From: Prochloraceae cyanobacterium PL24a_bin.78
GTDB lineage: Bacteria; Cyanobacteriota; Cyanobacteriia; Cyanobacteriales; JANQIW01
Assembly: GCA_028281945.1 (NCBI GenBank)
Contig: JANQIW010000172.1
Coordinates: 1-64,000, forward strand
Direction of reading: 5' to 3'
Length of the DNA stretch: 64,000 bases
This document shows, one piece after another, positions 20,161-26,213 of the stretch; position 1 is the stretch's first letter; the number at the start of each line of letters is the position of its first letter. The notes beneath the pieces were generated by a model. It had not been told where the DNA came from. It worked only from the letters and a program-made list of their open reading frames with translations, and did no database searches. Position numbers and translations under genes: made by a program.

Positions 20161-21678
20161 TTAATCTAGCTTTGATTCTATACTACTTATATCTTCAGAA
20201 TTCATTAAAGCTATGCCCATAATACTATCTCCACCTTTTGCTTTAGATAAACGCATTGCTAATGAAACTTCCCGTAATGTTTTAGCATATCCTATGGTAG
20301 CAGTTAATCCTGTTTTATCTTTATAGATTTTTTGTAGTTTATTAAGTAAGCTAACTTGATAACGAGCTTTGAAAAGAATATTATCACCTTCAGCAAAAAT
20401 TACACTACTATGATCTTTTGTTTCTTTATAGATAAGTTTTCTTAATTCTTCAATGGTTTTATATATATTTTGGCTTCTTTGTCTCACTATTTCTTCACTA
20501 GATTGCTTAAATCCTATATCTAAATAATCACCAGTAGAATCACCATCAAATCCAAAGTAAAAAATTGTTTTATCTTCTTCATGAGGAGTGTCAAGCTCTT
20601 TAACTTTAATAATTTCACCATTTCGATTTCGGAAAGCATTTATTGCTTTAGTTGTAAATTGTAAAAATGCAAATGCTAATTGAGAAGATAAGCGAGATTG
20701 AATATCTAATATTTCTTTAGAATAATTATTTTTTTTTGAAGGATGAGCCATCTCATTTCTTACTGAAGTAATTAATTTCGTAAGAAATCCTAATGTTTCT
20801 GCATTAATAAAATATTTTGGATGTCTAGAAAAAAATTGGTGAATCTGATCTAATTTAGGTCCAAGGGTTAAATTCTCCCAAGATTTGTTTTGATTTGAGA
20901 TCAAAGTTAAAACAATATTTGCAACTTCTTCAATGCCAGCACAAGAAGCAAAAATCGAATGACGATAACTATAAGATTCCTCAGTAGCTTCACCAATCAA
21001 ACGAGAATGAACTCCGGATAAAAGTGATTCTCGAAGATGTTCAAAATCAAAATCATTAGGTGATAAAGGTTTCAAACTTTTAATAAGTTCATCAATTATT
21101 GAATGATAACGTAGAATTTCTACATAATTGAATTTGCCAAAAAAATCAAATTCTCTTATTGGTGGGAACTTGCGATATTCTATCTTTAGATTACATTTTT
21201 TTAACTGATGGTAAAATAAATTACGTTGTTTATTGTCTGTAAAAGAGATTTCTAATGAATATACATTTTTTATATCTAGTACATAGGCAAAAACAGCTAA
21301 TATAGATTTGAGTGCTGAAATACCACTGGTTACATCAATATAGTATTGTGCATTGTCTAAAGGATTAACAATTGTTCGTAATTGCTCTGCAAGATCTTCA
21401 AATCTATCACTATTGGAATCTTCTATCTTTGTTACATGGTGTACTAAAGTAGTTGAAGAAATCTTATAATAATTTAAAGCTTCTTGCCAAGATGTTGAAG
21501 TGCTTAAAGCGTGTAATGATTCTTCAGTATGAAAAATATGTACTTGACGAAAAGTTAAATCTTCTTTTTTGCTATCCTCTTGAGCTTGAATAGTAGCTCT
21601 AATAATAGCATTTATCATTGTAGGAACATTTTTACTTCCGGGTAAAATCAACTTAAAATATTCTCGATCAAATTTCAT
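20161..21678 (-). CDS. CARF-like - HEPN - minimal CRISPR polymerase (mCpol) fusion protein
   Basis: The protein has 505 residues, and I read three parts. Residues 1-165 are Rossmann-like with FKLILPGSKN at strand 1 and YYIDVTSGISALKSI (112-126), close to the D-x-TGG-x-K motif of CARF domains that bind cyclic oligonucleotides. Residues about 185-350 are helical and contain SVRNEMAH with R307-N-x3-H312, the R-x4-H signature of HEPN RNases. Residues about 370-492 form a palm domain: YFGFDGDSTGDYLD (D378, D380), FAEGDN (430-433, replacing GGDD), TIGYAKT and AKGGDS, as in Cas10/GGDEF-type mCpol nucleotide cyclases. AAGG precedes the ATG. It is convergent with the hydrolase and divergent from dndC. 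A self-regulated signalling RNase is inferred. Confidence 0.72.
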   Translation of the reverse strand: MKFDREYFKLILPGSKNVPTMINAIIRATIQAQEDSKKEDLTFRQVHIFHTEESLHALSTSTSWQEALNYYKISSTTLVHHVTKIEDSNSDRFEDLAEQLRTIVNPLDNAQYYIDVTSGISALKSILAVFAYVLDIKNVYSLEISFTDNKQRNLFYHQLKKCNLKIEYRKFPPIREFDFFGKFNYVEILRYHSIIDELIKSLKPLSPNDFDFEHLRESLLSGVHSRLIGEATEESYSYRHSIFASCAGIEEVANIVLTLISNQNKSWENLTLGPKLDQIHQFFSRHPKYFINAETLGFLTKLITSVRNEMAHPSKKNNYSKEILDIQSRLSSQLAFAFLQFTTKAINAFRNRNGEIIKVKELDTPHEEDKTIFYFGFDGDSTGDYLDIGFKQSSEEIVRQRSQNIYKTIEELRKLIYKETKDHSSVIFAEGDNILFKARYQVSLLNKLQKIYKDKTGLTATIGYAKTLREVSLAMRLSKAKGGDSIMGIALMNSEDISSIESKLD

Positions 21679-22084: not shown

Positions 22085-23626
22085 ATGATAGGAAAGCAAA
22101 TATCCATATTCCCACCTCGCACAGTAGAAGAATTAGTAGAAGATATAGCCAAACTCAACCTAGAAATTCAAGAATTATACTGTGAAAATGATATCCCTTG
22201 GGTGATAGGGTATTCTGGAGGAAAAGATAGTACCGCAGTTTTACAACTGATTTGGAATGCTATTAAGCAGCTTCCTGAAGAAAAACGCCAAAAAAAGATT
22301 TATGTGCTAACTACCGATACAAGAGTGGAAAATCCTATTGTAGCAGCTTGGGTGAGTAAATCTATAGCTCAAATAAATAAAGCAGCAGCAGAACAAACCA
22401 TGCCCATGGAAGCACATTTAATCTATCCAGAAACTAAGGAAAGCTTTTGGACGTGCCTAATTGGCAAAGGTTATCCCGCCCCCAGGAGAGGATTTCGCTG
22501 GTGTACAGATAGAATGAAAATAAATCCCGCCAATGCCTTTATTAGGGAAAGAATTAAAATACATGGGGAAACAATTATCGCATTAGGGATTCGTAAGGCT
22601 GAAAGTACTGCTAGGGCACAACGGATGGAAAAGCACCAAAAAGGGAGATGGCGTGAAAGACTTAGCGTAAATTCCCGCTTACCAAATTCATTAATATATA
22701 GTGTAATCGAAGACTGGCGTACTGATGAAGTTTGGATGTATCTCTTGCAATGGGAAAATCCTTGGGGATACACTAACAAAGAGTTATTGAATATGTATCA
22801 AGGTGCTACAGCAGATAACGAATGCCCTTTAGTCATTGATACTTCTACCCCAAGTTGTGGGGATTCACGTTTTGGCTGTTGGGTTTGCACAATGGTTAGT
22901 AAGGATAAATCCATGGAAGCCATGATTCAAAATGACGATGAAAAAGACTGGTTACAGCCTTTATTGGATATTCGCAATGAATTAGATATAGAAAACGATC
23001 GAGATCGTAGAGATTTCCGTCGAATCTATGGAACAGTAGATTTATTTGAAAAAAATGTAGATGGAAAAACTACTATTGAAAATATTCCAGGTCCTTATAC
23101 TAAATATTGGCGAGAATATTGGTTAAGAAAAGTATTGGAAGCACAAGTGAAAGTTCGTCAAACTGCACCGGAAGAAATGAGGGATATTACTTTAATTACC
23201 CATGAAGAATTAAGCGAAATTAGAAGTATTTGGTTAGAACAAAAACACGAATTTGATGATAGTTTGCCTCGTATTTATAAAGAAGTAACGGGAGAAGAAT
23301 TTATTGATATTCGCGTCGGTGCCGGTAATAATCTTTTAGGTAGTGACGAATGGGATATATTAGAAGAAATTTGTGACGAAGATACTATGCTGTTAGAATT
23401 GATGGCTAAACTGTTAGATACTGAGCGTCAATATTATACAAAATCTCGCAGAATTGGTATCTATGATGCCCTAGAAAAATGTTTTGAAACAAGCTCTCGA
23501 TCGAAGGAAGAAGCCTTAGAAAATGCCCGTCTCAAAAGAGATTTAAAAAATGCTGTAAGTGAAGGAGATGCTGGTAAAGTAAAACAATTAACTTGGGGAA
23601 ATATTAAATTTCCAAAAGAAAATTAG
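22085..23626 (+). CDS. dndC: DNA phosphorothioation sulfurtransferase DndC
   Basis: The protein has 513 residues. It belongs to the PAPS-reductase/ATP-pyrophosphatase fold, with the PP-loop SGGKDST at 44-50. Conserved cysteines C140 (RWCTDR) and C247, C258, C265 and C268 (SCGDSRFGCWVC) fit the Fe-S-binding residues expected of DndC. It activates the DNA backbone for oxygen-to-sulfur exchange together with DndD and DndE. AGGAG precedes the start. It is first in a dndC-D-E run. No dndA or dndB is nearby, so a housekeeping cysteine desulfurase would have to supply sulfur (known in other hosts). Confidence 0.96.
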   Translation: MIGKQISIFPPRTVEELVEDIAKLNLEIQELYCENDIPWVIGYSGGKDSTAVLQLIWNAIKQLPEEKRQKKIYVLTTDTRVENPIVAAWVSKSIAQINKAAAEQTMPMEAHLIYPETKESFWTCLIGKGYPAPRRGFRWCTDRMKINPANAFIRERIKIHGETIIALGIRKAESTARAQRMEKHQKGRWRERLSVNSRLPNSLIYSVIEDWRTDEVWMYLLQWENPWGYTNKELLNMYQGATADNECPLVIDTSTPSCGDSRFGCWVCTMVSKDKSMEAMIQNDDEKDWLQPLLDIRNELDIENDRDRRDFRRIYGTVDLFEKNVDGKTTIENIPGPYTKYWREYWLRKVLEAQVKVRQTAPEEMRDITLITHEELSEIRSIWLEQKHEFDDSLPRIYKEVTGEEFIDIRVGAGNNLLGSDEWDILEEICDEDTMLLELMAKLLDTERQYYTKSRRIGIYDALEKCFETSSRSKEEALENARLKRDLKNAVSEGDAGKVKQLTWGNIKFPKEN

Positions 23627-23631
23627 TATCA

Positions 23632-23692
23632 ACAAAATTACTGTAAAAAAACTGTAAAACAAATTAGTGTAAAACAAAATTAGTGTAAAGAA
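23632..23692 (+). repeat. Imperfect tandem repeats between dndC and dndD
   Basis: Three to four imperfect copies of acaaaattagtgtaaa-like units lie in the 128-bp spacer between dndC and dndD. They could be slippage products. They enlarge the spacer and may separate translation of the two genes, but no hairpin terminator is seen. Confidence 0.7.
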
Positions 23693-23754
23693 ATTATCAA
23701 TTTTCCATTGGTATCATATCATAATCAAAGTAATAATTAATATTTCAAAACCAG

Positions 23755-25743
23755 ATGATTTTTCTTGAATTAGTATTGCAAAATTTTGGACCATATTATG
23801 GCAGACATATTGTTAATCTTAATCCCGAAATAGATAGTAACTTTCGCCCAATTATTCTTTTTGGCGGTATGAATGGTGGGGGAAAAACTACTTTAATAGA
23901 TGCTATTCGTCTGAGTCTTTATGGCCATAGGGCACAATGTTCAACTCGTGGGAATTTAAGCTACAGTCAATTTCTTCTACAATCTATTAATAATCAAACA
24001 AAACCTGATGAAATTACCTCTATAGAATTAGCTTTTAAACATATTAGAAATAACCAAAATATTGAATATAGAATTACTCGCCAATGGAGTAAAAATCAAA
24101 AAGATGTTAAAGATAAATTGAAAGTTACTGAAGATAATAGTATCGATTGGGTAGATAATAATATTAATAATACTTGGGATGAATATATTGAAAGTATTTT
24201 ACCAATTGGTATTTCTAATCTTTTCCTTTTTGATGGTGAAGAAGTTAAAGAATTAGCTGAACAAGATACTCTTACTCAATCTGTAATAGAAGCAATTAAG
24301 TCTTTATTAGGTTTAGAATTGACAGAAATATTATCAAGTGATTTGGATGTTTTAGCTAATCGCAAACGCAAAGCCATAGCCACTAATTCTCAGTTAGCTA
24401 AATTGGAAGAAATTGAAGCAATTATTGCTAAGTTAAATAAAGAAAAACAAAAGGCTGAAAAACAATTAAATACCCTATCAAAAGATAAGAAAAAAGCAGA
24501 TAAACATCGTGATAAAGTTCGGGAAAAGTTTAAATCGGAAGGAAGTAAAATTGCTAAAGCTAAATCAGAATTAGAGAATAAATTAGAAACTTTAAAAAAT
24601 TCCACTTCATCAATAAATGAAGAATTCCAAACTTTAGCTGCTGGTTTTTTGCCCTTAGCTTTAATTTCTCCTCTCTTAAAACAAGCCGAAATTCAAGGGG
24701 TAGAAGAATTAAAATGTCAGCAAGCAAAAATGGCTCTTAATATTATGCAATCTCGCGATCGCAGATTACTAAATTATCTAAGCAAAATCTCTTTAAATCC
24801 AGAAAAAATCAATAAAATCGAGTATTTTTTGGAGCAAGAAAATCAAGAATTAACTCAAAAAGCATCCCAACAATCTCTATGGTTAGGAATAGATAGTCAA
24901 ACCTTAAATCAGTTTAGAAATATACTTAATAATCAACTCCCAAAAAAGCAAGAAATAGTTCAAGAAAAACTTCAAGAAGTACAAAAAATAGAAGAAAATA
25001 TCCAATTCACTATGGATGAAATAGCGGTAGCAGATTCACCAGAAGAATATAATAAATTAGAAGAAGAATTTAATCATGCCACCCAAGAATCTATTAAATT
25101 AGAAAAGTCTTATCTAGAAGCAAAAAAAGAATTAGAAGCAATTAATCGGCAATTAATAGAATCTAAAAAAGAATTAGAAAGCTATAGCAAAGAAGCAATT
25201 GATCGACAAAATGACCAACATATTATTAATTCCATCGATAAAGTAAAAAGCAAACTAAAAGAATTCAAACATAAATTAGCTCTCAAAAAAATTAGTAAAT
25301 TAGAAAAAAGTGTCACCCAAAAATTTAGATATTTACTCCACAAATCCGATTTAGTCAATCGAGTAGAAATAGATACTAATAATTTCAAAATATCAATTTA
25401 CGATTCTAATACTACAGAAATCCCAAAACATCGACTTTCAGCAGGAGAAAAACAACTACTTGCCATCGCGCTTTTATGGGGATTAGCAGAAGTATCAGAT
25501 TGCAATTTACCTATCACCATAGATACACCATTAGGAAGATTAGATTCCTCCCATCGAAACAATTTAATCGAGCGTTATTTTCCCCAAGCTTCCCACCAAG
25601 TTATCTTACTTTCTACTGATACTGAAATCGAAAAAACTGAAATAGAAAAGTTAAGAAAACAAGAAACAATTGCCAGAGAATATCTGCTAAAATACGATGG
25701 CAAAAAAAGTCAAACAACTATTGTTCCCGGTTATTTTTGGTAA
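23755..25743 (+). CDS. dndD: DNA phosphorothioation SMC-like ATPase DndD
   Basis: The protein has 662 residues. The N-terminal ABC/SMC head has FGGMNGGGKTTLIDA (Walker A about 38-50). A long coiled coil (about 215-540) is interrupted by a hinge-like segment. The C-terminal head has the signature LSAGEKQLLAIAL and a Walker B region ITIDTPLGRLD. DndD couples ATP hydrolysis to DNA nicking or access during phosphorothioate insertion. The ATG start is supported by family-typical MIFLELVLQNFGPY. A single GCGATCGC (HIP1) octamer is at 24755-24762. Confidence 0.96.
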   Translation: MIFLELVLQNFGPYYGRHIVNLNPEIDSNFRPIILFGGMNGGGKTTLIDAIRLSLYGHRAQCSTRGNLSYSQFLLQSINNQTKPDEITSIELAFKHIRNNQNIEYRITRQWSKNQKDVKDKLKVTEDNSIDWVDNNINNTWDEYIESILPIGISNLFLFDGEEVKELAEQDTLTQSVIEAIKSLLGLELTEILSSDLDVLANRKRKAIATNSQLAKLEEIEAIIAKLNKEKQKAEKQLNTLSKDKKKADKHRDKVREKFKSEGSKIAKAKSELENKLETLKNSTSSINEEFQTLAAGFLPLALISPLLKQAEIQGVEELKCQQAKMALNIMQSRDRRLLNYLSKISLNPEKINKIEYFLEQENQELTQKASQQSLWLGIDSQTLNQFRNILNNQLPKKQEIVQEKLQEVQKIEENIQFTMDEIAVADSPEEYNKLEEEFNHATQESIKLEKSYLEAKKELEAINRQLIESKKELESYSKEAIDRQNDQHIINSIDKVKSKLKEFKHKLALKKISKLEKSVTQKFRYLLHKSDLVNRVEIDTNNFKISIYDSNTTEIPKHRLSAGEKQLLAIALLWGLAEVSDCNLPITIDTPLGRLDSSHRNNLIERYFPQASHQVILLSTDTEIEKTEIEKLRKQETIAREYLLKYDGKKSQTTIVPGYFW

Positions 25744-25790
25744 TCAAAAAGATACTAACTATCAAAAAAATAGAACTAAAAAATACAATT

Positions 25791-26213
25791 ATGGAAGCAC
25801 CACTCGATCGAATTAGAATCTCACAAAAAGCAAAAGATCAACTTATCAGACTCAAACGTTATACTAAAATAGAACAATGGAATATACTTTGTCGATGGGC
25901 ATTTTGCCTCTCATTAGCAGATGAAAGCAAAACATCTCACACACCAATTCAAGAATATAGTAACGTAGAAATGAGTTGGCGAATTTTTGGAGGAGAATTA
26001 TCAGACATACTAATAATTGCCTTAAAACAAAGATGTCATAATGATGGTTTAGAGACAGACAAAGAAACCCTAGCTAATCAATTTAGGATTCATTTACACC
26101 GAGGAATTGGCTATTTAGCAGGAAATCCCAACATCAAAAAAATTGAAGATTTAATAGCAATAAACTTTCAAGAATTAGACACTTTAACTAATGACGAGAT
26201 TGAAAACGAGTAA
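25791..26213 (+). CDS. dndE: DNA phosphorothioation protein DndE
   Basis: The protein has 140 residues from the ATG at 25791 (MEAPLDRIRISQKAK). A TTG at 25737 overlapping dndD is in frame but gives non-family residues. The sequence shows the DndE pattern of basic N-terminal helices, LCRWAFCLSLAD, and a C-terminal HRGIGYLAGNPNI motif. DndE forms an oligomer that binds nicked DNA in the modification complex. The 3' end overlaps the convergent DUF2062 gene by 26 bp, so no restriction genes (dndFGH) follow. Confidence 0.94.
   Translation: MEAPLDRIRISQKAKDQLIRLKRYTKIEQWNILCRWAFCLSLADESKTSHTPIQEYSNVEMSWRIFGGELSDILIIALKQRCHNDGLETDKETLANQFRIHLHRGIGYLAGNPNIKKIEDLIAINFQELDTLTNDEIENE

Follow-up and report, generated by a model that had tools for sequence, protein, structure and literature searches.

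Whether a synthase, a sensor and an RNase carried by the same polypeptide can form a self-contained nucleotide-signaling circuit, and whether the signal turns the RNase on or off, are the questions raised by a gene present in the 64,000-nucleotide stretch of the Prochloraceae cyanobacterium PL24a_bin.78 analyzed here, which will be called the window. A chain combining these three functions is a compact system for deciding signal polarity: the paper on Panoptes leaves open whether mCpol signals inhibit or activate CARF/HEPN effectors (PMC12657218).

Gene structure and family assignment

The gene is located on the minus strand, where an intact frame of 505 codons runs from an ATG at 21678 to a stop at 20161 (Table 1); the same frame of the plus strand is interrupted by many stops. 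The interval, the order of the three signatures (CARF-like, HEPN and mCpol) and the residue numbers given in the original prediction were all found to be correct. The TIGY and AKGGDS motifs occur downstream of EGDN in the protein. The ordered motifs D-x-[TS]-x-G, R-x4-H, DGD and GD[DN] were present in only one of the 41 ORFs of the window measuring at least 150 aa, and were missing from all 20,000 shuffled versions of the protein sequence.

Table 1. Positions in the window of the CARF-HEPN-mCpol gene and of the domains and motifs it encodes
Feature	Positions	Strand	Basis
CARF-HEPN-mCpol protein, 505 aa, intact ORF	20161..21678	(-)	PDLC01967, residues 8-492 of 505
CARF-like domain, ~residues 1-165	21184..21678	(-)	PADLOC Csx1/Csm6, CARF1, CARF_TM matches
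CARF motif D115-V-T-S-G119	21322..21336	(-)	DLTNG/DLTGG/DLSNG in relatives
HEPN-like helical domain, ~residues 185-350	20629..21126	(-)	all-helical model; homology to split CARF-HEPN genes
HEPN motif R307-N-E-M-A-H312 (RNxxxH)	20743..20760	(-)	R, N, H invariant, 11 sequences
mCpol palm domain, ~residues 372-491	20206..20565	(-)	Pfam PF18182, NF033576, Foldseek to OptS
D378-G-D380, first metal-site aspartates	20539..20547	(-)	D378 aligns with OptS D6
E430-G-D432-N433 hairpin	20380..20391	(-)	D432 aligns with OptS D57

The PADLOC model CARF_HEPN_mCpol (PDLC01967) matches the protein end to end (profile positions 2-471 of 471, E=1.3e-186), and this match, together with the Pfam mCpol model and the OptS structures, supports the presence of the three domains in that order. 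The mCpol part was recognized by Pfam PF18182 (residues 374-488, E=4.3e-26) and, above its cut-off, by NCBIfam NF033576, and a search of the PDB sequences with the family profile gave as the only significant relatives the mCpol structures of Panoptes OptS (9mnr and 9nwn, E=4.7e-10). The CARF part matched the PADLOC models Csx1/Csm6 (E=3.6e-6), CARF1 (4.4e-6) and CARF_TM (6e-5 to 8e-5), and the NCBIfam Csm6 model at E=0.0015, which is under the cut-off of that model. No Pfam match above cut-off was obtained for the HEPN part; the corresponding region of the relatives gave weak, sub-threshold matches to DUF4145 and Abi_2, which we take to be HEPN-type families.

The novelty of this combination of domains, which was implied in the original prediction, does not hold: a categorically new architecture is ruled out by the existence of the exact three-domain model in PADLOC, and mCpol domains fused to HEPN RNases were reported in a 2025 Nature paper (PMC12657218). 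The protein is a real, intact and conserved member of a rare family that has already been catalogued, and no experimental work on any CARF_HEPN_mCpol member was found in the literature.

Predicted structure

The AlphaFold2 model of the whole chain, based on an alignment of five sequences only, is confident in the mCpol segment (pLDDT ~70-93), all-helical in the middle region with pLDDT values of ~47-77, and poor at the N-terminus, where alternating beta/alpha elements are seen in low-confidence models. With Foldseek, the mCpol segment matched OptS best (9pd0, rmsd 1.9 A, target TM 0.85); Csm1/Cas10 came next. When the CARF part was modeled separately from a shallow alignment, the pLDDT was 41 and Foldseek returned no match below E=0.9; no usable CARF signal was obtained with hhalign against a Csx1-like protein and the CARF-2TM partners described below. 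The structure prediction proposed as a check on the three domains therefore bore out the mCpol part, which has the OptS fold, and gave CARF and HEPN at low to moderate pLDDT with a shallow alignment. The identity of mCpol is secure in view of the Pfam match, the confident AlphaFold segment and the Foldseek match to OptS. The assignment of the N-terminal part as a putative CARF domain is supported by profile matches and invariant motifs, and that of the putative HEPN domain by the invariant RNxxxH, the helical prediction, the sub-threshold matches and the homology with stand-alone CARF-HEPN proteins.

Active-site residues and the EGDN hairpin

In a comparison between nine fused sequences, including that of the window, and the CARF-HEPN partners of two split systems showing 18-19% identity, the invariant residues included G14, N17, D115, G119, R307, N308 and H312. 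The residues D378, G379, D380, G431 and D432 are invariant across the fused set; conservation of the three aspartates in homologues had been proposed as a test of the palm domain. The catalytic residues of Kp OptS are Asp6 and Asp57 (PMC12657218). Since the phmmer alignment, from which the OptS numbering was counted, pairs DGDD of OptS with 378-DGDS and AADG with 430-EGDN, D378 and D432 are the equivalents of Asp6 and Asp57.

A further suggestion was that replacement of GGDD by EGDN might change what the enzyme makes. EGDN is common to a whole subclade including the window protein, the Microcoleus sequences and others, while the copies from Anabaena, Richelia and one more genome, which form the sister subclade, carry AGDD, and OptS itself carries AADG. 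Judging from these alignments, EGDN is a feature of the clade in which the essential aspartate is kept; since it is shared by the subclade and the equivalent of the catalytic D57 is retained, it gives no evidence for a changed product, and this proposal was dropped as unsupported. Residue S30 of OptS is reported to influence the choice of product (PMC12657218); its equivalent, S402, is an invariant serine, which gives no product prediction on its own.

Distribution and evolution of the family

Full or nearly full matches were identified in 11 of the 391 genomes of the order, including that of the window, two of which carry copies frameshifted (G640) or truncated (G591) inside mCpol; in five more genomes, the copies are broken by frameshifts, stops or deletions. 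The ten or so full-length or near-full-length relatives are all cyanobacterial and solitary and belong to one clade, the fused proteins forming a single mCpol clade with 99/99 support. Among 84,980 species genomes, a pattern-based scan with an alignment as the query yielded five loci, all of them cyanobacterial, and a scan with the single protein gave zero matches; the coverage was not exhaustive, members overlooked here having been found by the genome search of the order. No homologues were detected in the phage, plasmid and IMG/VR collections.

The same flanking gene is present in three near relatives within a single genus (G556, G591 and G603); otherwise, no conserved neighbor gene was seen at the relatives examined, which suggests that the chain is self-sufficient; none of the neighborhoods examined lies inside a cas operon. 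When the window protein was compared with the Microcoleus-type copies, the dN/dS ratios, which are approximate because dS is mostly ~1 or >1, ranged from about 0.1 to 0.35 per domain and were lowest in mCpol, showing that all three domains are under purifying selection.

Broken copies are numerous (L063 in G640, L061 in G591, L064 in G603, L065 in G514, L066 in G534, and those of G597 and G599), and in some of them an AT-rich insertion following TIGY recurs at one and the same point of mCpol. In G591, the end of mCpol was lost by an insertion at this point, and in G640 by a frameshift, the CARF-HEPN frame remaining open in both cases. In several other copies, the lesions begin in CARF. Reading the signal polarity from the broken copies was abandoned, the lesions being mixed in this way, with two copies broken in mCpol only.

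Two-gene versions and other mCpol partners

The same parts also occur as two genes. In one cyanobacterial locus (L047, G455), mCpol is encoded by a 124-aa gene that precedes a 365-aa CARF-HEPN gene; in another (L054, G467), a 338-aa CARF-HEPN gene overlaps by 4 nt a downstream 131-aa mCpol gene, which is the order found in the fusion. Both larger genes carry DL[ST]NG and RNxxxH, and hhalign of the fused-family profile against that of the split CARF-HEPN proteins gave E=5.5e-10 for an alignment spanning the last part of CARF plus the HEPN region.

Other cyanobacterial mCpols are paired with or fused to CARF-2TM proteins (L048, L049, L050, L052, L053 and L056). Two of these are single-chain mCpol-CARF-2TM fusions (L049, 7075-8535, and L050, 6196-7476), in which a predicted membrane segment stands in for HEPN, making them transmembrane analogs of the window protein. 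At two further loci (L055, 413-1397, and L057, 1867-2854), a short mCpol gene lies head to head with a divergent membrane-protein gene; the pair in L057 adjoins a CD-NTase gene and a patatin-like gene. These loci are probably cyanobacterial Panoptes systems, that in L057 lying beside CBASS. The effector of mCpol looks interchangeable across cyanobacterial loci, and this mixing and matching of partners points to a synthase with exchangeable effectors, in agreement with the survey in PMC12657218.

Genomic surroundings and co-occurrence

The original prediction saw no 2TM effector or Cas gene nearby. This is true of the immediate surroundings, where the flanking genes are unrelated and no partner gene, including any separate S-2TM-beta OptE, was found, but a type III-A Cas10 operon is present ~60-65 kb away on the same contig (L078, 1591-10288, i.e., ~80-88 kb on contig C20 of G000); its Cas6 has an extra C-terminal HTH-type stretch. 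The host genome also carries, on another contig, a III-B locus (L079, 2330-10316) encoding Cas10b together with a CARF protein that is Csx1-like, and an FHA-type ORF weakly matching the Cas10 palm Pfam model (L080, 8455-10572).

The gene adjoins divergent dndC, dndD and dndE genes (DNA phosphorothioation) located on the plus strand at 22085-26213; no dndB or dndFGH was seen alongside them. A functional coupling with dndCDE was rejected, the relatives examined having no dnd neighbors, as judged by eye from the ORFs.

CBASS was not found in the host genome and is not enriched among carriers (1/16 versus 41/391 genomes). Neither is Cas10 (12/16 versus 270/391, p=0.78), these counts including some false positives, since proteins other than Cas10, such as the FHA-type ORF of the host, are picked up by the Pfam model; four carriers showed no Cas10 match. 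The idea that the protein might guard CBASS or type III CRISPR was rejected in the absence of co-occurrence; the counts are small.

Proposed mechanism and alternatives

We give about an even chance to the proposal that the gene encodes a one-gene Panoptes-like abortive-infection module in which the ligand-bound state is more likely to be the off state. The mCpol domain would make a cyclic (oligo)nucleotide from NTPs, no dedicated infection sensor being present in the chain; this product would be bound by the protein's own CARF, either in cis or, in an oligomer, in trans, and the ligand-bound CARF would set the state of the HEPN RNase. Upon removal of the signal by a phage sponge or phosphodiesterase, the freed RNase would cut cellular RNA and the infection would be stopped. 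An off state is favored for the ligand-bound form because a bare mCpol should synthesize its product constitutively: no infection sensor was seen in the chain, and OptS makes inhibitory cyclic dinucleotides constitutively (PMC12657218; see also the companion report by Doherty et al., PMC12657230). The more specific claim that the polypeptide is a complete signal-guard, its own product keeping the RNase off until a signal-depleting phage protein releases the toxin, is made tentatively, as falling somewhat short of even. The guard reading is supported by the full-length PDLC01967 match, the structural match to OptS, the conserved catalytic positions, the lack of a conserved neighbor gene, the two-gene versions, the exchangeable effectors and the low dN/dS in all three domains. 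It is at odds with the lack of CBASS or Cas10 enrichment, which differs from Panoptes proper, with the low confidence of the AlphaFold models of CARF, and with the G591 and G640 copies, which, if loss of the signal frees an active HEPN, should be toxic unless they are misfolded, silent or assembly errors. To our knowledge, moreover, all the CARF proteins characterized so far are activated by their ligands.

This last argument is shared by the reverse scheme, in which mCpol would stay silent until a phage cue appears and its product would then bind CARF and switch HEPN on, as cOA turns on Csm6. Well-studied CARF-HEPN proteins are indeed ligand-activated, the profiles match Csx1/Csm6, and copies with a broken mCpol and an open CARF-HEPN frame are to be expected if toxicity requires mCpol; however, there is no further domain that might sense an infection, the mCpol resembles the constitutive OptS, and it is the domain with the lowest dN/dS of the three, which makes activation somewhat unlikely. 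It is improbable that the protein serves chiefly as a Csx1-like receptor for the cOA of the host type III CRISPR systems, mCpol tuning or inhibiting it via a second nucleotide. The presence of III-A and III-B Cas10 in the host and the precedent of Clover, where one effector responds to both activating and inhibiting nucleotides (PMC12265719), would fit such a role, but Cas10 co-occurs with the family at background level, the four carriers mentioned above have no Cas10 match, and the gene was never found within a cas operon; cross-talk with this cOA is possible but unsupported. Lastly, although experimental data on members were not found and several relatives have broken copies, we regard a non-defense regulator or a degenerate gene devoid of signaling function as improbable: the catalytic motifs are intact across 18-70% identity, dN/dS is low, and the patchy distribution of the gene is typical of defense genes.

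If the signal is inhibitory, as the guard reading predicts, the rule that the ligand activates CARF would be reversed and decoy signaling would extend beyond membrane effectors and CBASS. We know of no CARF domain with an inhibitory ligand and no HEPN RNase restrained by its own product, so these would be the first.

Comparison with known systems

The members described by PDLC01967 have the same domains in the same order, the window protein belonging to the EGDN and not to the AGDD subclade. The split mCpol and CARF-HEPN operons contain the same parts, with homologous CARF-HEPN proteins, but consist of two shorter genes and lie outside the fused mCpol clade. The mCpol and CARF-2TM pairs (partners CARF_m9--CARF_TM in PADLOC) likewise combine mCpol with a CARF sensor, but their output is a transmembrane segment and not HEPN. 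Co-occurrence with CBASS is a hallmark of Panoptes, whereas the carriers of CARF-HEPN-mCpol show no such linkage; Panoptes OptSE shares with the window protein the mCpol fold and the catalytic aspartates of OptS, but its effector is the separate 2TM-beta protein OptE, while that of the window protein would be the CARF-HEPN part in cis on the chain. Csm6 and Csx1, the ancillary RNases of type III CRISPR, have CARF and HEPN with Rx4H, as predicted for the window protein, which differs from them in having no cas neighbors and in carrying its own signal synthase.
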